Of a stretch of 24,385 nucleotides of DNA, positions 9,911 through 19,033 are shown piece by piece. Position numbers and translations under genes: made by a program. Positions within the stretch are counted from its first letter, which is position 1. Every line of letters begins with the position of its first letter. The notes beneath the pieces are model-generated. The model did not search any database and had not been told where the DNA came from. It saw only the letters and a program-made list of their open reading frames with translations. This stretch comes from a virus. The stretch is taken from the IMG/VR virus record IMGVR_UViG_3300032331_001732, positions 1 through 24,385 of that record. One strand, 5' to 3'.

Positions 9911-12388
9911 TTATTGAAGGCTGCTCTCAGTTGTTAAAGCTGTGTCGTTTTGGATTGCTAATAATTCTTTATTATTTACTTTAGCTGAGACATTTAATTT
10001 TACTCCTGACATAGCTTCTTTGACTTTATCTCCCATTTTATCCCCCATTTTATCAAAGTCAATTGAGAATATTCGTTCAAGTCGAGACATCATTTGGTTA
10101 ATTTTAGCTGATTCATTATTATTAACGCTTTTTACTTCTAAAGATTCAGGATTTGTTACTGGTGTTATTTCTGGAGTTACCGAATTAATAGTAGGAGTTA
10201 TTTCTGAGAAATTATTATTTATAGTTGATATTGTCTCTTGAGGTTTAGGATTAGATGGGGAAGGTTTTAAAGATGTTGGTTTAGGGAATTTATTTTCTCC
10301 TAATAAATCAGTACCTACTTTAATACTTCCATCAGCTCCATACATTGCTTTATCTTTTGGATCAAGTTGAATTGTTCCAAAATCTCCTTTTAACACAGGC
10401 CGTTTAGGTTGATTAGGATAAACAACACCATCTTTCATAGAGCTAAACGCAGCTATTGCTCCTGCTACAACAGCTAAACCTCCTACTATTGAAGCAGTTA
10501 CAGCTCCAAAAGATACTGCTTCTGCACCTGCTACTTTCATAGCTGTTAAAGCAGCTTCTTTTGTTAATCCTTGATTTAAAGCGCTATTATATGCTCTAGC
10601 TGATATTACTGTTGCGGCCACTGAGGCGGCAGCTGTCACTAAACTTGACACCATTTTTCCAGCTAAAATACCAGCTACCAATCCAAATACTATTTTTAAT
10701 CTTTCTCCAGTAAATAGCATTTGTGCTAACATTTCTAAAGGACCAGCTAAAGCTTCAGTCATTTTTTCTATAGACTTATTTATACTTTCTTGAACAGATA
10801 AACGTTTTAGTTCTTCTGATCCAACTCCCATTACTTTTTGAAGTTGTTCATCTGATAAGCCATTGATGTTTCTTTGGTCGTATATCATCTTAGCCATTTC
10901 TTCACGACCTAAACCTAAAGATTTAGCTATGGCTTCTTGTTGAATACGATTACTACCTGCGAATGAATTAATAAGGTCTTGATTAGTACCTATTTCTTTA
11001 GTTAATCCAACTATATCATTATTTAAAGCGTATAATCTAGCTTGCTCTAAATTAATTTGTTTACCAGTTAGTAATTCTGCTTCTAATTCAGCTGATATAC
11101 TGTCTTCAAAATTTAATAATGAGCTAGCTATTTTATCTACTTGATCTAAAGATAAACCTAATTTTCTAGCTTCAGCGTTAGCTAATCCTATTTTTGCAGC
11201 ATTTCCTCCTAAAGACATAGCTATAGCATCTGATGTGTTGGCGATATCTCTAAAATTAGCCGCTAAGGATATACCTGTTCTGTTAGTTTTATTAAAAGAT
11301 TCTAATTGTTTACCTACAGCTATATTACTAGCTTTTAAATTGTTTCCTGATATTCTACTAAAACGAGCTAGTTTTCCTGCTTCTTCACTCCCCATACCCA
11401 TGAGATTAACCATCTCTGCTGCTTCTTGAAGAGTTTCTTTAGTAAAAATAGCGTCAGCATTAACTCCAAATTGTTTAGATAATGCTGTAGCGGTTTTAAT
11501 ATAATCAGAAGAAGAAATAAGACTCATGTTAAGAGTATCTACATAATCTATACTCTTTCCTGTTTCTCTTCCAAATTCTACTTGAGCTTTATTTAATGAG
11601 TTAAATCCTTCAATTAATTTACCAACAATAAAAACAGCCTCACCCCATTTAGCAAAAGTTTCAGTTATTCCACCTAATGCTTTTCCTACACCAGGAATAC
11701 TTCCTAATTTACCAGCTAAACGTCCTGCAAACCCTAGTTCTTTACTTAATTCTTCAGCTGTGCTTAATAATATTTTAAATTCTTTATTACTTTCTTCTAT
11801 TTTTTCTAAATTAGCATCAAGCGCATTTTTAGTTTCATCATACTCTTTATTAATCCTTCGTAATAATTGTTCTTTTTCTTGTAATTCATTATTTTGAGCA
11901 GTAGTTAATGATGTTAGAGATCTTAAATAATTAACATTAGCTTCTAAAGCTAATTTTTCTATCTCTAATTGATTTTTACTTTCTATTAGTAGAGCTGAAG
12001 CGTTTATTAATCTTTGTCTTTCTAACTCAATTTGAGATTTTAAACTAACAATCTCACTAGCCGACATTTCTCTTATACCTTTTTGATGATGGTAGATTTT
12101 TTCAGATAATGAAATTAAATTATGGTAAGCTTTATTAGTTTCTCTTAAACCTTTATTTTGACTAGCAATTTGTTTAACTATTTTTTCAAAAGCATTTACA
12201 TAATAAAGTACATCATTGTTTATTTGAGCTTGTTCTCTACGTAATCGTCTTAATTCATTACGAGCATTACCTATATTTTGAGCGTGTAAAGCAGATGAGT
12301 CAGCTGCAGATTGTGATAATTCATCAATTAATTGATATAATCTTTTTAATTCATCTAATTCAGCTGGTGTTAGTGGGGTACTTGCCAT
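9911..12388 (-). CDS. Tail tape measure protein
   Basis: An 825-residue protein, longer than the T4 tape measure gp29 (590). Such proteins set the tail length and are released through the tube at infection. Residues about 8-215 form long charged helices with heptad character. Residues about 220-560 are helical, with LGLSLDQVDKIASSLLNFED (410-429) and SLGLGREEMAKMI (490-502), patterns common in phage tape measures. Hydrophobic Gly/Ala-rich segments lie at about 565-598 and 619-650 and could cross the host membrane. A Pro/Asn/Thr-rich linker (about 700-760) leads to a short amphipathic C-terminus with a repeated MGDK. The chaperone genes directly upstream support the call. By the usual 1.5 angstrom per residue rule the tail would be roughly 100-125 nm. 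Confidence 0.88.
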   Translation of the reverse strand: MASTPLTPAELDELKRLYQLIDELSQSAADSSALHAQNIGNARNELRRLRREQAQINNDVLYYVNAFEKIVKQIASQNKGLRETNKAYHNLISLSEKIYHHQKGIREMSASEIVSLKSQIELERQRLINASALLIESKNQLEIEKLALEANVNYLRSLTSLTTAQNNELQEKEQLLRRINKEYDETKNALDANLEKIEESNKEFKILLSTAEELSKELGFAGRLAGKLGSIPGVGKALGGITETFAKWGEAVFIVGKLIEGFNSLNKAQVEFGRETGKSIDYVDTLNMSLISSSDYIKTATALSKQFGVNADAIFTKETLQEAAEMVNLMGMGSEEAGKLARFSRISGNNLKASNIAVGKQLESFNKTNRTGISLAANFRDIANTSDAIAMSLGGNAAKIGLANAEARKLGLSLDQVDKIASSLLNFEDSISAELEAELLTGKQINLEQARLYALNNDIVGLTKEIGTNQDLINSFAGSNRIQQEAIAKSLGLGREEMAKMIYDQRNINGLSDEQLQKVMGVGSEELKRLSVQESINKSIEKMTEALAGPLEMLAQMLFTGERLKIVFGLVAGILAGKMVSSLVTAAASVAATVISARAYNSALNQGLTKEAALTAMKVAGAEAVSFGAVTASIVGGLAVVAGAIAAFSSMKDGVVYPNQPKRPVLKGDFGTIQLDPKDKAMYGADGSIKVGTDLLGENKFPKPTSLKPSPSNPKPQETISTINNNFSEITPTINSVTPEITPVTNPESLEVKSVNNNESAKINQMMSRLERIFSIDFDKMGDKMGDKVKEAMSGVKLNVSAKVNNKELLAIQNDTALTTESSLQ

Positions 12389-12417: not shown

Positions 12418-12439
12418 GGCTAAGTTTTAATACTTAGCC
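12418..12439 (-). terminator. Possible weak terminator before the tape measure gene
   Basis: A 7-bp stem (GGCTAAG/CTTAGCC) with an 8-base loop overlaps the last codons of the chaperone frame. On the minus strand it is followed by TTCTTAATATTT, a poor T-tract. It lies immediately before the tape-measure leader element, as the two strong terminators do with theirs, but it may be only an attenuator. Confidence 0.4.
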
Positions 12440-12744
12440 AACTTTTTACCTTTATCCATCTGTCCTTTAAAATGTGATGGTAGATCTATTTTACCTTCTT
12501 TAATTTTTTGAGATTGAGTACCTAAATCTTCATTTTGAGAGGCGTTTTGTTTCTCATAATGTTCTCTCATCTTGTTAAAAGTAAATTTACGCAACCAAAT
12601 AGGCATATTATAAACTGTTTCCCAATCATAACCGCCTTGACCATGAAAAACTATTTCATGAATTTGAGAAAATAAATTAACTCGATGTTGAGGAGCTAAA
12701 TCAGATGTCAGGCCAAAAAAAGTTAAGCCCAATGGGAAGGTCAA
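12427..12744 (-). CDS. Second tape-measure chaperone domain, gp51-like, probably made by frameshift
   Basis: The open stretch gives 105 codons if begun at the TTG at 12744, but there is no ATG before an internal Met at residue 47 and no ribosome binding site. The first ten codons lie out of frame inside the preceding gene. The conserved-looking part starts after the T7 run: LFSQIHEIVFHGQGGYDWET, then YNMPIWLRKFTFNKMREHYE. This resembles the second chaperone domain of many phages (gp51-like or the 'T' of G-T pairs), where a short 'MPxxLRxFyxxK' helix region is typical. The C-terminus is Lys-rich and polar. The best reading is that it is made as the C-terminal part of a 334-residue fusion with the gp26-like protein. 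Independent translation from TTG, or a sequencing miscount in the homopolymer, are alternatives. Confidence 0.65.
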   Translation of the reverse strand: MTFPLGLTFFGLTSDLAPQHRVNLFSQIHEIVFHGQGGYDWETVYNMPIWLRKFTFNKMREHYEKQNASQNEDLGTQSQKIKEGKIDLPSHFKGQMDKGKKLAKY

Positions 12745-13432
12745 TTTTGTTGGTTTGTCCTTCAGGAAAAAAGGTCATATCAACGTCTGGCTGAACCTCC
12801 TTTATGTACTCCCTTAACGCTCTGGAGTCACGAGCTAAAAACATATTATCAACAAAATCACGAATGTCTTTCATATCTCTATTACCTCCAACTGAAGTAA
12901 TAATATATTTCATTCTTGTTGATAATTCTGCTGAGGAATTTTTGTTTATTTTTTTAAGCCCTTCAATCTCAGCATTTATTTTCTTTTCATCTTTACCTGT
13001 TAGTAATTTAAAGGTAATATCTATACCTGAATGTGGAAGTTTAAAAGTAAACTCATTTACTCCTTTTTTAAATAACTCAGTATTAATTGGTTTATTTTCT
13101 AAAGTAGACAAATCAATGTTTTGTTCTTCACCATTCCAATTAAATTTATATTCACTACCATAACCTAACACACGAGCTGCTATTAGAACAGCGTTTTTAT
13201 CACCTATAATTAGGTCTTCATAATCTACATCAGAAACAATAAGTGATTTAACTAACTCATCTAATACTGTACCTTTACTAATATAATTTTGGTTAGTTAA
13301 TATGTCTTCTTCACGAGCTGTCATATACTTCATTTCAATTTTACCACTTGATAAAGGAGATGACTCTGGGTAGATTAGGCCTTGAGAAGGTAATTCGACA
13401 ATTTCTGTCGGCGTTTTAAATTTATTTTCCAT
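12701..13432 (-). CDS. 26: Tape-measure chaperone / baseplate hub assembly protein, T4 gp26-like
   Basis: A 243-residue protein of the gp26-like 'T4 base plate' family (T4 gp26 has 208). The N-terminus PTEIVELPSQGLIYPESSPL, followed by a segment reading IEMKYMTAREEDILTN, is the family hallmark; KSLIVSDVDYEDLIIGDKNA and AARVLGYGSEY follow. In tailed phages the genes just before the tape measure encode chaperones that coat it before tube assembly, and the position here fits. The frame ends with FFWPDI at a run of seven T. A second frame coding for a gp51-like domain continues across that run, so most or some product may be a 334-residue frameshift fusion. The family assignment is good; the chaperone role is inferred from position and from what is known of other phages. 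Confidence 0.8.
   Translation of the reverse strand: MENKFKTPTEIVELPSQGLIYPESSPLSSGKIEMKYMTAREEDILTNQNYISKGTVLDELVKSLIVSDVDYEDLIIGDKNAVLIAARVLGYGSEYKFNWNGEEQNIDLSTLENKPINTELFKKGVNEFTFKLPHSGIDITFKLLTGKDEKKINAEIEGLKKINKNSSAELSTRMKYIITSVGGNRDMKDIRDFVDNMFLARDSRALREYIKEVQPDVDMTFFPEGQTNKIDLPIGLNFFWPDI
12715..12721 (-). promoter_or_regulatory. T7 slippery run, putative +1/-2 frameshift site
   Basis: On the gene strand the zero frame reads AAC TTT TTT TGG and stops four codons later. The downstream frame reads ACT TTT TTT GGC and continues for 95 codons. Slipping tRNA-Phe by +1 (or -2) on the seven T joins the two. A -1 slip would hit TGA after two codons. Losing one T by polymerase slippage would have the same effect. 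Confidence 0.6.
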
Positions 13433-13478: not shown

Positions 13479-15104
13479 TTAATGAGCTTGATAATTTGTT
13501 TTCATAAAATTATAATATTTGTTTTCTGGCTCCCATTCTTGAGTGTATGGGGAAGGTGCTAATCCTAATTCACCTGTTACTTCAGGAGGATAAACAGTAG
13601 TATTATCTGTTTGAGGAACAACATAAGTTGTTGGGGCTGCGTTTTGATTTTCAATATCTAATCCAGTATATTGGGTAGAGTTCTCTATAACACTAACTGG
13701 TCCACCAACTGCATTAACTATTATATTTTCATATGTAGCCTCAGGAGTATATGTTTGTCCAAAAGGAGTAGCTGGTCCATTATACTCTCCAGTTGCTTGA
13801 AGAGGATAATTTGTTGTATTATCTATACCTGGTACAACATAAGTTGTTGGTGCAGCTGATGGTAGTTCAACATCTAATCCAGTTTCGTCTAATGTATTAA
13901 CTTGGGCGTTAGTTGTCGGATCAACAATGCTGTTAAATTGAGATAAATAAGTATTAGTTGGGGTATATGGTGTTTGATATTGACTAGGGGCACCACCAAA
14001 TTCTCCCATTTGAATTTGAGGAGATGGGGAGGGAATACCATAATCAGTAGGTGCACTTATATTATTAGGTGTAAAAGTTGTAGGTAAAGCGTTACTATCA
14101 ATATTGTCTAACCCAGTTAAATCTAAAGTACTCTGTTGAGCATTTTGGAAGTTTGAATTTAAATATGTGTTGTTAGCGTTATAAGTCTGAGTATATTGTC
14201 CTGCTCCTCCTCCAAACTCACCTGATGTTAATGATGGATATTGAGTTATAGTATTAGGTGTAACAGTAGTTGGGGCAGAAGATGGATTGGTATCATCTAA
14301 ACCAGTCTGGCTTAATGTTGGGATTTGAGGGCTATTTGGGTCCTCAATAGTAATGTTATTTAAATAAGTATTATTTGGAGTATAAGTTTGAATAAAGTTA
14401 TTACTTTGGCCTCCAAATTCACCCGCTGCTAAGTTTGGGTATGAAGTATTAGTAGAAGGAGAAACTGTTGTTGCTACTAAACCTATATTTTCTATATCTA
14501 AGCCTGTATCTGCCAAACTATTAGGTTGGACATTAGGGTTAAAGTTATTTAAATAAGTACTATTTGGACCATATATTTGATTATATTGGTTAGGAGCTGA
14601 ATTGTATTCACCCGTAGCTAAACTAGGATAGTTTGTTGTGTTAATAGGTGATACAGTAGTTGGTACAGATGATGGATCAGTATTATCTAATCCAGTTTCA
14701 TCTAAGGATTGAGCTAATGGACTTGTTCCTGCTCCTACTACTACATTATTATAATTGATAACAGGTGACCATATTTGTAAAAATTGAACAGCACTTTGAC
14801 CTAGTCCACCTAAAGCTGTAGCTGGATAAACTGTTAAAGTATTAGGAGTTGTAGTTGAAGGAAGATAATTAGGATTATCTACATCTAAACCTGTTTCTTT
14901 TAATGTAGGAGGTTGAATACCTACATTTTGTCCTCCAGCAAACGCATTTAAATAAGTATTATTTGAATTCCATACTTGTTGAAAAGGAGTGACACCAGTG
15001 TTAAACTCTCCAGTGGCTGGAGCTATAGGACCATTACCTTGTGGTGGTACTGGATTGATATCCAAATTTGATTGGTTCTGTAGTAGTAAATCTAATAAAC
15101 CCAT
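13479..15104 (-). CDS. TGLD-repeat protein of unknown function
   Basis: A 541-residue protein I do not recognise. After a short N-terminus (MGLLDLLLQNQSNL) it consists of about seven diverged repeats of 63-78 residues. Each has the order GE[FY]..., a Gln/Tyr-rich strand, N(N/S)TYLN, a variable spacer, TGLD, then (A/V)PTT and YP. TGLD occurs at residues 71, 137, 200, 267, 330, 408 and 480. An eighth, partial unit (TGELGLAPSPYTQEWEPENK) closes the protein. It is rich in Asn, Thr, Pro, Tyr and Ser and almost free of charge and Cys, suggesting extended or beta structure. It lies between tube and tape-measure chaperones, so a tail-associated role is plausible. It shares its first 14 residues in pattern with the small protein at 9880-9581. 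Confidence 0.8.
   Translation of the reverse strand: MGLLDLLLQNQSNLDINPVPPQGNGPIAPATGEFNTGVTPFQQVWNSNNTYLNAFAGGQNVGIQPPTLKETGLDVDNPNYLPSTTTPNTLTVYPATALGGLGQSAVQFLQIWSPVINYNNVVVGAGTSPLAQSLDETGLDNTDPSSVPTTVSPINTTNYPSLATGEYNSAPNQYNQIYGPNSTYLNNFNPNVQPNSLADTGLDIENIGLVATTVSPSTNTSYPNLAAGEFGGQSNNFIQTYTPNNTYLNNITIEDPNSPQIPTLSQTGLDDTNPSSAPTTVTPNTITQYPSLTSGEFGGGAGQYTQTYNANNTYLNSNFQNAQQSTLDLTGLDNIDSNALPTTFTPNNISAPTDYGIPSPSPQIQMGEFGGAPSQYQTPYTPTNTYLSQFNSIVDPTTNAQVNTLDETGLDVELPSAAPTTYVVPGIDNTTNYPLQATGEYNGPATPFGQTYTPEATYENIIVNAVGGPVSVIENSTQYTGLDIENQNAAPTTYVVPQTDNTTVYPPEVTGELGLAPSPYTQEWEPENKYYNFMKTNYQAH
13494..15015 (-). repeat. Seven-fold coding tandem repeat of about 190-235 bp
   Basis: The DNA of the 541-residue gene is a tandem array of diverged units of about 63-78 codons, visible as recurring segments encoding GEFGG, NNTYLN, TGLD and PTT. 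The units are not identical in DNA, so the expansion is old or under selection. Boundaries are approximate. Confidence 0.75.
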
Positions 15105-15178: not shown

Positions 15179-15667
15179 TTAGAAGTTTAATACGCAGTAA
15201 TCCATTCCAACAGTCATTGTGATATTTATTGCTTGGTTTTCAGTATCCCAGTTATAATCACCAAAGTTGGCTTCTTTAATAAATGCGCCTTTTATAATCC
15301 ATTCACTAACAATATCACCTACAGGTCCTAAAACATCTAATACTAAGTCTTTTTTATAAAAATCTGAGTATCCATCACGGCCTGTTACTGATTCGTGGTG
15401 TAAACGTACCCATTCCATTACTGATTGAGCTCCAGAAGGTGTTACTGGATCAAATAGGGTCATCTGAATATCACCCCATGTTGTTTTTCCTTTAACCTTT
15501 CTGTACACGTTAATATGGTTTAGTACTACTTCACCTTGTGATACAGTTACAGCGTTTACTCCTTTTACTAAATAGCTAGGTACACCATCCATATAAAGGA
15601 TAAATCTGTTTGCCTGCTTTGGTTCAAAAGCTGTAAAAAATATTTCGTTTGCGTTTAATATTGCCAT
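15179..15667 (-). CDS. 19: Tail tube protein, T4 gp19-like
   Basis: A 162-residue protein, almost exactly the length of T4 gp19 (163). It polymerises as hexamer rings into the inner tail tube. Characteristic segments are NRFILYMDGVPSYLVKGVN near the N-terminus, HINVYRKVKGKTTWGDIQMT in the middle, then LFDPVTPSGAQSVMEWVRLH. The C-terminal half (WIIKGAFIKEANFGDYNWD, ending MTVGMDYCVLNF) is the usual two-strand finish of the fold. It lies right after the sheath gene, as in T4. A strong hairpin terminator follows its stop codon, which would isolate this abundant transcript from the downstream repeat-protein gene. A very secure call. Confidence 0.95.
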   Translation of the reverse strand: MAILNANEIFFTAFEPKQANRFILYMDGVPSYLVKGVNAVTVSQGEVVLNHINVYRKVKGKTTWGDIQMTLFDPVTPSGAQSVMEWVRLHHESVTGRDGYSDFYKKDLVLDVLGPVGDIVSEWIIKGAFIKEANFGDYNWDTENQAINITMTVGMDYCVLNF

Positions 15668-15704: not shown

Positions 15705-17846
15705 TTATACTGGGAAACTTGCTCCAGTTGGTGTAATGATGAAATCTAAGTAAATAAATTCAGCCGTTTTAGTTGGTTGAACATAAATTTGACCTACTAA
15801 TTCATTTCTATCAATTACATCAGCTGTATTGTTGCTACTATCCATTACTACTTTAAACGCATACAATCCTTGTCTTTGTTGAACATTCTCTAAGTATGGA
15901 TTTACTTGTGCTAAGAAGTTATTTCTTGTAGCTACTGTATTTTGTTCAAATACTAATGTATTAGCCACTTGAGAAATATAACTCTTAAGAGAAATTAATA
16001 AGCGACGAACATTTACACGATCAAGAGCAGATGCTTTAGTTTGTAATGTCTTTTGACCATATACCACTACGCCTTGTCCTGGGAATGTAGCGATTGGATT
16101 CACTTTACCTTGATATAAAGTATCACGATAAGATTGAGGTAATTTTTGTTCAGCACGAACAACATTTCCTAATCCACCACGATTAATACCAGCTGGTGCA
16201 AACCATGGTTCAGCAACATTATCATTATAAGCATATACACCAGCAATTACAGTTGAAGCTGGTACCCAAACTAAATTACCTGTAGCTGGGTCACTTACTT
16301 GACACCATGGCCAGTAAGTAGTAGCGTATGATGAATTAATAGCTGCAGCTTGTCCTGTTATTGTAGTTACACTTGATCCATAAGGAACCATATCTGTTAC
16401 AAATATATTATCACCTCTGTCTTGAGTATTTGTTATAATTGTAGAAAGAATACCTGCGTAATCTGAACGATATAAACCTGGGGTAAATAAAATATTGAAT
16501 TGATAATCATCTTTATTATTCAATAAATTAACCATATTAAGGTAATCAGTGTAGTATAATCCTTGAGTATTTGTAGCACTGATATTTTGATAGAATTTAG
16601 CCGCACTAGTTAAATAAGTAGAATTAAATGGATCACCAGTAGCTGTACCAAAAGCACCATTATTTGCTAATGGAATAGAAGCAGTATATGCTGATTTAGC
16701 TACTCCATTATTATCTAAATAATCAGGTGTTAATAAATTAACACTTTTAACCCTAACATATCTAGAAGCATTAACATAACTACCACTATATTCCATTTGG
16801 TTAGTGGATGGATTATAATTTATTGTAGAGTCACCCAATAATTTAGAAATAAAATTACTAGCTTTAGGATCTAATGATAAATTAGTCCATGTTTCTAACA
16901 CAATAGGACTATTTGTAGTATCATTACCTTGTCTAATTAACAAATCAAATGTTCCAGTTGAAGTATCAGGATTAACTACTTGCCATCTCACATTATCAAT
17001 TGATCCGCTAGCTAAAGCACCAGCTGAGTCAAGAGCACTATCACTGTTCATTATAATTCCTTCAGAAATAGTTTCTAAAGTAAATGAAGATGTATAGTTA
17101 CCTGTTGTACCTCCTCCAAAAACACTATATGGTGTCCAACTTCCTAATTTTGTAGTATTCCAGTTTGAAGCAGAAGCAAATACATATGTGTTATTATATG
17201 ATGCTATTTGAGATATAGATGAAGATATAGTTAAAGTATCAGTAGATACACTAGCTGATAAACCATGATATGCTACTGTGGCGTTTATCTTAGCTGAAGC
17301 TGAAGCTGCTGTAACCACAGCTGATGATCCACTTGCAAAATAAAAATAAGAAGCATTAGTAGTAATTTTATCAGCTATAGTTCCAGAAGAAGTAGGTATA
17401 AAAATATATTGAACTGATGGAGAAGATCCACTATTAGAAAACACACCAAATGCTGTTTGGTTAGCAGTTACTGATGTTATTGTTAAACTAGCTGTTGCTC
17501 TAATAGCTCCAGTTACTAGTGCACTATTAATAGATGCTGTTGCTGGTGACCAATTTGAGGCTTCACGCACTGTTCTAGCTATTAATAATGATTTTCCACC
17601 GTTTTGGAAATAATTATAAGCTGCTATTGAAGTAAAATAAGTATAAGTATTACTAGCACTTAAAATTGTAGTTCCAAATTTATTAACGAAATCACTATAT
17701 GAAGTAACTACGGTAGGAATTTCTACAGGTCCTTTAACTGTTGGACCAATTATAGCGGCTCCTACAGACACTGGTCCTGAAGTTATAAATGACTGATCAT
17801 TTTCTCTTGCTAAGACACCTGGGGATATTAAAGTTTCTACTGCCAT
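15705..17846 (-). CDS. 18: Contractile tail sheath protein, T4 gp18-like
   Basis: A 713-residue protein (T4 gp18 has 659). It forms the contractile outer sheath around the tail tube. The N-terminus has the standard sheath opening SPGVLARENDQS (8-19), then AAIIGPTVKGP (30-40), and later YFQNGGKSLLIARTV (79-93). The C-terminal domain (about 607-713) is the conserved part that engages neighbouring subunits: VNVRRLLISLKSYISQ, a central YLENVQQRQGLYAFKVV region, and the final strands ending IYLDFIITPTG. The middle (about 100-400) is Ser/Thr/Ala-rich and variable and probably forms surface domains. It is followed directly by the tube gene, as in T4. The start follows a leader element and an A-rich stretch without a Shine-Dalgarno sequence. 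This is one of the most secure calls in the window. Confidence 0.96.
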   Translation of the reverse strand: MAVETLISPGVLARENDQSFITSGPVSVGAAIIGPTVKGPVEIPTVVTSYSDFVNKFGTTILSASNTYTYFTSIAAYNYFQNGGKSLLIARTVREASNWSPATASINSALVTGAIRATASLTITSVTANQTAFGVFSNSGSSPSVQYIFIPTSSGTIADKITTNASYFYFASGSSAVVTAASASAKINATVAYHGLSASVSTDTLTISSSISQIASYNNTYVFASASNWNTTKLGSWTPYSVFGGGTTGNYTSSFTLETISEGIIMNSDSALDSAGALASGSIDNVRWQVVNPDTSTGTFDLLIRQGNDTTNSPIVLETWTNLSLDPKASNFISKLLGDSTINYNPSTNQMEYSGSYVNASRYVRVKSVNLLTPDYLDNNGVAKSAYTASIPLANNGAFGTATGDPFNSTYLTSAAKFYQNISATNTQGLYYTDYLNMVNLLNNKDDYQFNILFTPGLYRSDYAGILSTIITNTQDRGDNIFVTDMVPYGSSVTTITGQAAAINSSYATTYWPWCQVSDPATGNLVWVPASTVIAGVYAYNDNVAEPWFAPAGINRGGLGNVVRAEQKLPQSYRDTLYQGKVNPIATFPGQGVVVYGQKTLQTKASALDRVNVRRLLISLKSYISQVANTLVFEQNTVATRNNFLAQVNPYLENVQQRQGLYAFKVVMDSSNNTADVIDRNELVGQIYVQPTKTAEFIYLDFIITPTGASFPV

Positions 17847-18161: not shown

Positions 18162-18170
18162 TATAAATAT
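18162..18170 (-). promoter_or_regulatory. ATATTTATA leader element before the coiled-coil gene
   Basis: ATATTTATA on the gene strand, followed by ATAAAATA, lies 12 bases before the ATG at 18149. It overlaps the last base of the LamG-like gene's stop codon. The ATATTTATAATAAA(A/T) form is shared with the tube, 541-residue and 99-residue genes. Confidence 0.5.
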
Positions 18171-19033
18171 TAATCATATATTCCAAACCTACCTTTCATA
18201 GTGTGATAGTTTTGAAGTACTTCTTGTCGGGTAAGAGCTCGTCCGTATATTTGAACTGGTCCTATATTTCCTATCATTTGGTTAGAATTAGGTCCTGATG
18301 AGCTGCCTCCTGCTCCAAAATATGTTCCATTTCTAAGAGTTGTTCTATCACTTGTTGACGGGGTTCCTGGAACTCCGTTAGCATACGCTGTTATAACTCC
18401 ATTATTAAACGTAATTGTAAAATAGTTCCATCTATACAATATTCCAGCGGGACTATCTGCTGTAGTAAATTGATTTGAAGTAGCATTACCAAATCTAGCT
18501 GATGCTATAATTCCATTAGATGTAGCAAGTATATCAAATGGTCGATCACGAGATGATAATGCTCCAGCATAGAATAAACTTCCTTGAGTACCAACAGCAC
18601 CAAGAGTTATTACTCTATGCCATATTCCTAAAGTTAATTCACTTCTTCCATCTAAATATCTAGTATTAAAAAGAGTATTAGTAACAGGAGTACTAGTTTG
18701 AGATATAATTATAGCTGGGTAATGCCATTGATTTGGTGACACTGTTGTTGATCTACTTACAAATAAACATCCTCCAAATTCTGGTGTGTAACTAGATGTA
18801 GGTGATGCTGCTTCTGATACTGATCCTGTTCTTATATTAAATGAGGCTGATATGTATGGGTTTCCTCCTCCTTTAGCTATATTATTTAATGTTGATTTAT
18901 TATTATTTATATAATCAAAACTATTAATATTACCTACATCAAAGTAAAAGTCTAACCCATCTGTAACTACACCTGAACCTACAAATGTACTTCCTGTTAC
19001 TACTAAAGAACCTGTTACTATAACTGATGCCAT
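18170..19033 (-). CDS. LamG/concanavalin A-like, probable glycan-binding virion protein
   Basis: A 287-residue protein. Residues 1-22 are a TGS-type beta lead (VTGSLVVTGSTFVGSG) like that of fibre proteins. From residue 24 on there is a single jelly-roll domain of the LamG/concanavalin A type. It opens with GLDFYFDVGNINSFD and closes with the characteristic NIGPVQIYGRALTRQEVLQN (residues 255-274). WNYFTITFNNGVITAYANG (202-220) matches the central strands of this fold. Such domains bind sugars or surface glycans, so this may be a receptor-binding or capsule-binding part of the virion. It starts one base after the stop of the fibre-like gene and is probably co-translated with it. The fold call is good; the ligand and location on the virion are inferred. 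Confidence 0.8.
   Translation of the reverse strand: MASVIVTGSLVVTGSTFVGSGVVTDGLDFYFDVGNINSFDYINNNKSTLNNIAKGGGNPYISASFNIRTGSVSEAASPTSSYTPEFGGCLFVSRSTTVSPNQWHYPAIIISQTSTPVTNTLFNTRYLDGRSELTLGIWHRVITLGAVGTQGSLFYAGALSSRDRPFDILATSNGIIASARFGNATSNQFTTADSPAGILYRWNYFTITFNNGVITAYANGVPGTPSTSDRTTLRNGTYFGAGGSSSGPNSNQMIGNIGPVQIYGRALTRQEVLQNYHTMKGRFGIYD

Follow-up and report, generated by a model that had tools for sequence, protein, structure and literature searches.

Frameshifting in tail chaperone genes is a well-known kind of system, and frameshifting of tail assembly chaperones (TACs) is known as such. Phage lambda makes a short chaperone, gpG, and a frameshift-extended one, gpGT, next to the tape measure gene (Xu, Hendrix & Duda 2004; review PMC5009743). 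A 2016 review described the tail chaperone frameshift as conserved 'except T4' (PMC5009743). The T4 proteins gp26 and gp51 have already been published as TACs, and some T4-like phages use −1 poly-T signals (both from Vladimirov, Gautam & Davidson 2022, as cited in PMC10885494 and PMC12846349); in the text citing that study, a +1 clade is not mentioned. Cyanophage gp51 was already known to correspond to the C-terminal fifth only (PMC3037559).

Here we describe a locus in a 24,385-base IMG/VR viral record, the whole of which was analysed and is called the window below. With a probability of about 0.92, the locus is the TAC-N/TAC-NC tail assembly chaperone pair of a T4-related contractile-tailed phage, made through +1 frameshifting, a shift that we infer from the sequence. 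As in lambda, a short and a frameshift-extended chaperone would be encoded beside the tape measure gene.

Organization of the locus

The features of the window that bear on this reading are as follows.

12701..13432, minus strand: TAC-N (G-like, gp26-like, PF12322) ORF, 243 amino acids, stop included in the coordinates; PF12322 and phrog_150 matches, fold
12714..12724, minus strand: slippery site AAC_TTT_TTT_T|GG; sequence, kept in relatives, blind motif scan
12721-12715, minus strand: run of seven T, TTTTTTT; sequence
12728..12730, minus strand: GGG codon three codons 5′ of the first TTT, candidate upstream stimulator; codon preference in relatives
12427..12714, minus strand: TAC-C (T-like) domain, 95 codons plus stop, +1 frame; open frame, T-domain HMM in relatives, substitution pattern, link to gp51
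9911..12388, minus strand: putative tape measure protein, 825 amino acids, directly downstream; position
15179..15667, minus strand: tail tube protein, upstream context; phrog_4542 tail tube protein, E 2.3e-21
15705..17846, minus strand: tail sheath protein, upstream context; PF17482 and PF04984

Both frames are read directly from the DNA. Frame 0 runs AAC TTT TTT TGG CCT GAC ATC TGA at the junction, so that the gp26-like frame of 243 codons ends four codons past the T run, as the original prediction had it (minus strand, 13432-12701). The downstream frame, A ACT TTT TTT GGC CTG ACA, is open from 5′ of the run to the stop at 12429-12427; it has no ATG ahead of the conserved domain, the sole listed start being a TTG at 12744, 5′ of the run. 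The prediction that such an overlapping frame continues for 95 codons past the run, directly before the tape measure gene, also holds, with 38 nt between its end at 12427 and the 825-amino-acid ORF. A −1 shift, correctly said to meet a stop at once, closes after TTG GCC. Reading through the junction in +1 gives a fusion of 334 amino acids.

The 825-amino-acid ORF has no Pfam or PHROG match. It is putatively the tape measure protein by position, by analogy with the isolate Flavobacterium phage immuto, in which the gene in this place is annotated tail tape measure protein. The annotated order in immuto is tail sheath, tail tube, baseplate hub subunit, a 36-amino-acid hypothetical protein and tail tape measure protein; the 36-amino-acid protein is a fragment of the downstream (TAC-C) domain. 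The annotations of immuto (L082 6854-6964) and SP-15 (L085 3809-3928) miss the fusion, giving the C-terminal domain as a short hypothetical protein that begins at an internal start.

Two further genes of the window were noted. Between the tail tube and chaperone genes lies a 541-amino-acid protein (13479-15104, minus strand) with about seven diverged repeats starting TGLD...PTT...YP...GE; it has no Pfam or PHROG match, and among the loci examined its relatives occur only in L004, L008, L026 and L391, immuto lacking it at this place. Upstream of the sheath gene, a 287-amino-acid protein (18170-19033, minus strand) carries a C-terminal LamG/concanavalin-like domain and is possibly a virion decoration or adhesion protein.

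Family and fold of the upstream protein

The upstream protein matches PF12322 (T4_baseplate, gp26/gp51) with an E value of 7.8e-6 and 26.2 bits, against a curated cut-off of 24.5; in the same test, a close relative of SP-15 scores 100 bits. It also matches phrog_150 (baseplate hub; E 1.8e-12). One PF12322 copy is present in the 24-kb record, which is a fragment of a genome.

An AlphaFold2 model of the upstream protein, built from an alignment of 49 sequences, reached a pLDDT of 93. The best matches of its N-terminal domain among solved structures are YqbN (Z 6.5), the HK97 tail assembly chaperone (Z 5.1) and PICI ORF19 (Z 4.2), the next row scoring 2.1; the match covers the N-terminal domain only and the Z-scores are modest (all below 8), yet the best ones agree. 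The HK97 entry is itself labelled tail assembly chaperone, and YqbN and PICI ORF19 are presumably proteins of that kind too. Foldseek against the PDB alone gave no significant match for the model. The 334-amino-acid fusion, modelled without an alignment, gave a pLDDT of 37, and the good model is that of the upstream product. With moderate scores, this product is thus predicted to have a tail assembly chaperone-like fold. The locus thereby combines what is found in G/GT-type pairs: overlapping frames directly upstream of a (positional) tape measure gene, a conserved slippery sequence and a chaperone fold.

Conservation of the junction

The upstream protein found 80 relatives, in all of which the downstream ORF lies in the +1 frame. 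Together with the loci from three further queries and named isolates, the set comprises 188 loci, and the T-domain HMM matches in the +1 frame in 181 of them, so that comparing the T run and both frames in relatives bears out the proposed frame relation. Isolates with this relation are immuto, Mel-JY01, SP-15, GXN1 and RM378. The seven exceptions are three contigs that break off before the junction or at it (L120, L189, L190); RM378, which is +1 by inspection and too distant for the T-domain HMM; L181 and L186; and L088 (LR756511, a 595-kb phage), in which the T match is in the −1 frame with U_UUU_UUC at the 3′ end of the upstream gene, possibly a reversal of shift direction inside the +1 clade. 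SP-15 and RM378, used as queries in viral contigs, matched only themselves, and a scan of GTDB genomes with SP-15 found no relative.

A blind scan of the IMG/VR viral collection for the 16-base motif STTTTTTTGGCCTGAC gave at least 120 matches. Among the matches listed, 120 of 120 fall at this junction, where a homologue of the upstream gene ends, and all are in the correct frame; the T domain follows in the +1 frame behind 119 of them, and the remaining one is at a contig end. The same architecture in 181 of 188 relatives, together with these listed matches, is far beyond chance. Homopolymers are error-prone, and a sequencing or assembly error in the run would leave one continuous gene; that the same relation is kept in 181 loci from many metagenomes and isolate genomes, sites without a homopolymer included, and in the blind scan excludes such an error.

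Production of TAC-C as a separate protein, from a non-ATG start or by reinitiation, is the arrangement in L181 and L186, where the domain has its own ATG just past the upstream stop (near position 2717). The original prediction had taken a T domain with its own conserved ATG, away from any slippery run, as evidence against the shift, but both loci have lost the run (TTC_TTG_TAT and TTC_CTT_TGG), and its loss together with the gain of an ATG instead supports a link between the run and decoding of the T domain. The TTG in the +1 frame 5′ of the run, found in the window and in many relatives, could also serve such a start. Yet 57 of 153 non-redundant junctions contain no ATG, GTG or TTG in the +1 frame from 30 bases before to 33 bases after the stop, and just 20 have an ATG there; between the slip and stop+33, a start codon is absent in 135 of 153 and ATG is present in 5 of 153. 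Separate initiation also leaves the codon preferences described below (the fixed P-site TTT and the avoidance of T before the run) unexplained, and we regard it as extremely unlikely for the window. On the comparative evidence, the slippery spot, fixed across a large T4-like clade, is very probably a real decoding switch.

Direction of the proposed shift

The original prediction was of a programmed shift of '+1 or −2' on the T run making a 334-residue chaperone fusion. The shift and the fusion are strongly supported, and the variant sites narrow the direction to +1. On a pure run of seven T, the P-site tRNA-Phe can re-pair at −2 or at +1, both leading to the same frame, and a −2 shift as in phage Mu would give the same fusion with one extra Phe. 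However, the same frame is reached from TTC_TTT_TGG (15 loci), TTC_TTT_CGT (GXN1), TTT_CTT_TAC, TTT_CTT_TGG (immuto) and TTT_CTA_TTC (LR756508), all of which offer a Phe or Leu tRNA that can re-pair at +1 (UUU to UUU or UUC; CUU to UUU). At the TTC_TTT and TTT_CTA sites, −2 re-pairing would face UCU or a similar mismatch, so that TTC_TTT_TGG, TTC_TTT_CGT and TTT_CTA_TTC do not allow the Mu-type route across the family. A −2 shift is accordingly improbable.

Homopolymer runs are also known sites of transcriptional slippage, in which the transcript would lose one T or gain two. Seven T is a short run for this process, and several homologous sites, TTCTTTCG, TTTCTATTC and TTCTTTTGG, have at most 3–4 T in a row, leaving little likelihood that the polymerase is responsible. 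The variant sites that lack a T run thus permit +1 re-pairing but neither −2 re-pairing nor transcriptional slippage. It is highly probable that the frameshift is real and goes in the +1 direction.

Selection on the slippery codons

Selection at the slippery site is visible in its codons. Across 153 non-redundant junctions, the P-site Phe codon is TTT in 147 of 147 cases, against a background of 83% (p 7e-13, or 6e-10 on 118 clusters; these values take loci as independent although they are related, and the 118-cluster set is the fairer one). Of 107 pyrimidine-ending codons just 5′ of the run, 102 have C and not T as their last base (28.8 expected); T is avoided at this position, which removes the −1 heptamer U_UUU_UUU. 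The A-site codon is nearly always TGG, one of the least used by these genes at 0.8 per thousand. Three codons 5′ of the first TTT, Gly is encoded by GGG in 55 of 107 cases, against 8% in the background, and by GGR in 97 of 107, against 40%. Conserved residues in two frames (WP and GL) can account for the invariance of GGCCT, but not for these codon choices. In close pairs, substitutions in the T domain number 5331, 3278 and 10476 at positions 1, 2 and 3 of the +1 frame, the excess at third positions being as expected for coding sequence.

The GGG or GGA codon three before the first TTT is a candidate cis-acting stimulator. A Shine-Dalgarno-like element was considered for the GGR preference; its spacing is unlike that in prfB, and the hosts include at least one Flavobacterium. 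Downstream RNA structure gave no specific signal as a stimulator across 146 loci (mean z −0.68, where a region further along in T gave −0.98 and one within G gave −0.13); the junction of the window taken alone has a z of −2.3.

T4, cyanophages and the family tree

T4 genes 26 and 51 had been proposed to be the two domains in separate genes. This does not stand: both proteins match PF12322 end to end, gp51 being about 50 residues longer at its C terminus, so that T4 has a short and a long paralogue rather than two separated domains, an assignment that citing papers credit to Vladimirov et al. (2022). The C-terminal segment of gp51 aligns with the short downstream cyanophage 'gp51' (hhalign 98%, E 3.5e-14), and the two together align with the T domain of the window clade at 82% (score 33; shuffled columns did not exceed 13.7). 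When the profiles of the gp51 C terminus and this T domain were compared directly, the match was weak (23%), the value rising only via the cyanophage intermediates. We therefore hold with moderate confidence that the gp51 C terminus and the T domain are related.

In nearly all of the 80 cyanophage-type loci (two of them truncated), gp26 closes with TTTTTTC (U_UUU_UUC) and the T domain follows in the −1 frame; in several, no ATG lies nearby. In L202-L281 and L192, gp26 and the short gp51 are probably one −1 frameshift pair. The idea that the rarer direction is a trait of this phage must likewise be given up: a large clade has the site fixed, and cyanophage-type relatives carry a −1 heptamer at the same place. 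A tree of the G domain, made by a 'quick' method and with some long branches, places every +1 member, together with the two split genes (L181/L186), apart from the cyanophage-type proteins and T4 gp26 and gp51, with a support of 100. Within the +1 clade, L181 and L186 are neighbours of immuto, which makes the split a derived state.

Proposed mechanism

Normal translation would yield TAC-N, of 243 amino acids. In a fraction of ribosomes, tRNA-Phe would sit on the second UUU of C_UUU_UUU_UGG with UGG, a rare Trp codon, next to be read in the A-site. The P-site tRNA would then slip +1 past T12715 onto the overlapping UUU, making GGC (12714-12712) the next codon decoded, and translation would run for 95 codons in the +1 frame to give TAC-NC, of 334 amino acids. 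If the pair works as lambda gpG/gpGT does, the tape measure would be coated by TAC-N, and tail tube protein would be brought in by the TAC-C part. Both frames, their conservation, the selection on the slippery codons and the chaperone-like fold of the upstream product are results of the analysis, whereas the shift event, its efficiency and these assembly roles are inferred.

Discussion

We consider it fairly likely that one chaperone family obtains its long form by at least four routes: +1 on UUU_Y (window clade), −1 on U_UUU_UUC (cyanophage-type and possibly LR756511), a separate ATG gene (L181/L186) and a duplicated in-frame gene (T4). In that case, the +1 sites would make up a bacterial class of P-site UUU slippage resembling influenza PA-X, with T selected against before the run to bar −1 slippage. 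T4-like phages thus seem to have changed more than once how the long tail chaperone is decoded, while keeping both products. The +1 route in a large unannotated T4-like clade, the slippery-site rules and the repeated change of route look new, being undescribed as far as we have checked. We know of no general motif for +1 frameshifting, and the clade is a large natural data set for it, with many slippery-site variants and built-in controls (run loss with gain of a start codon). The reading also corrects the annotation of the isolates immuto and SP-15, which treats the C-terminal half as a hypothetical protein with no relation to the upstream gene.

Comparison with known systems

Lambda gpG/gpGT shifts −1, whereas the window would shift +1 on UUU_Y and its protein belongs to the T4 PF12322 family. 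T4-like gp26 and gp51 share a homologous TAC-N domain with it, and the C terminus of gp51 appears related to its downstream domain; T4 has two genes for the short and the long form, where the window would use one gene and a frameshift. Cyanophage gp26 and short gp51 (S-SSM7 and 80 relatives) have the same gene order, related domains and a Phe-Phe slippery position, but with U_UUU_UUC and the −1 frame, unlike the +1 of the window.

The prfB frameshift takes place on a stop codon and has a Shine-Dalgarno stimulator close by. The CUU_U re-pairing of its CUU_UGA site is also possible in the TTT_CTT_T variants (immuto and the L049 group), but the window clade differs from prfB in having a sense codon (TGG or TAC) in the A-site. 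The tail chaperone of the haloarchaeal myovirus HSTV-2 has been called 'very likely +1' (PMC5009743); set beside the window by description, it is alike in direction, in being a tail chaperone and in coming from a contractile-tailed virus, and differs in its archaeal host. At the influenza A PA-X site, UCC_UUU_CGU, the +1 shift was shown by mass spectrometry (PMC3498833). Here the ribosome is eukaryotic and the gene unrelated, and the analogy is one of mechanism only: a P-site UUU and +1 slippage, with UUU_CGU shared by the GXN1 homologue (TTC_TTT_CGT).
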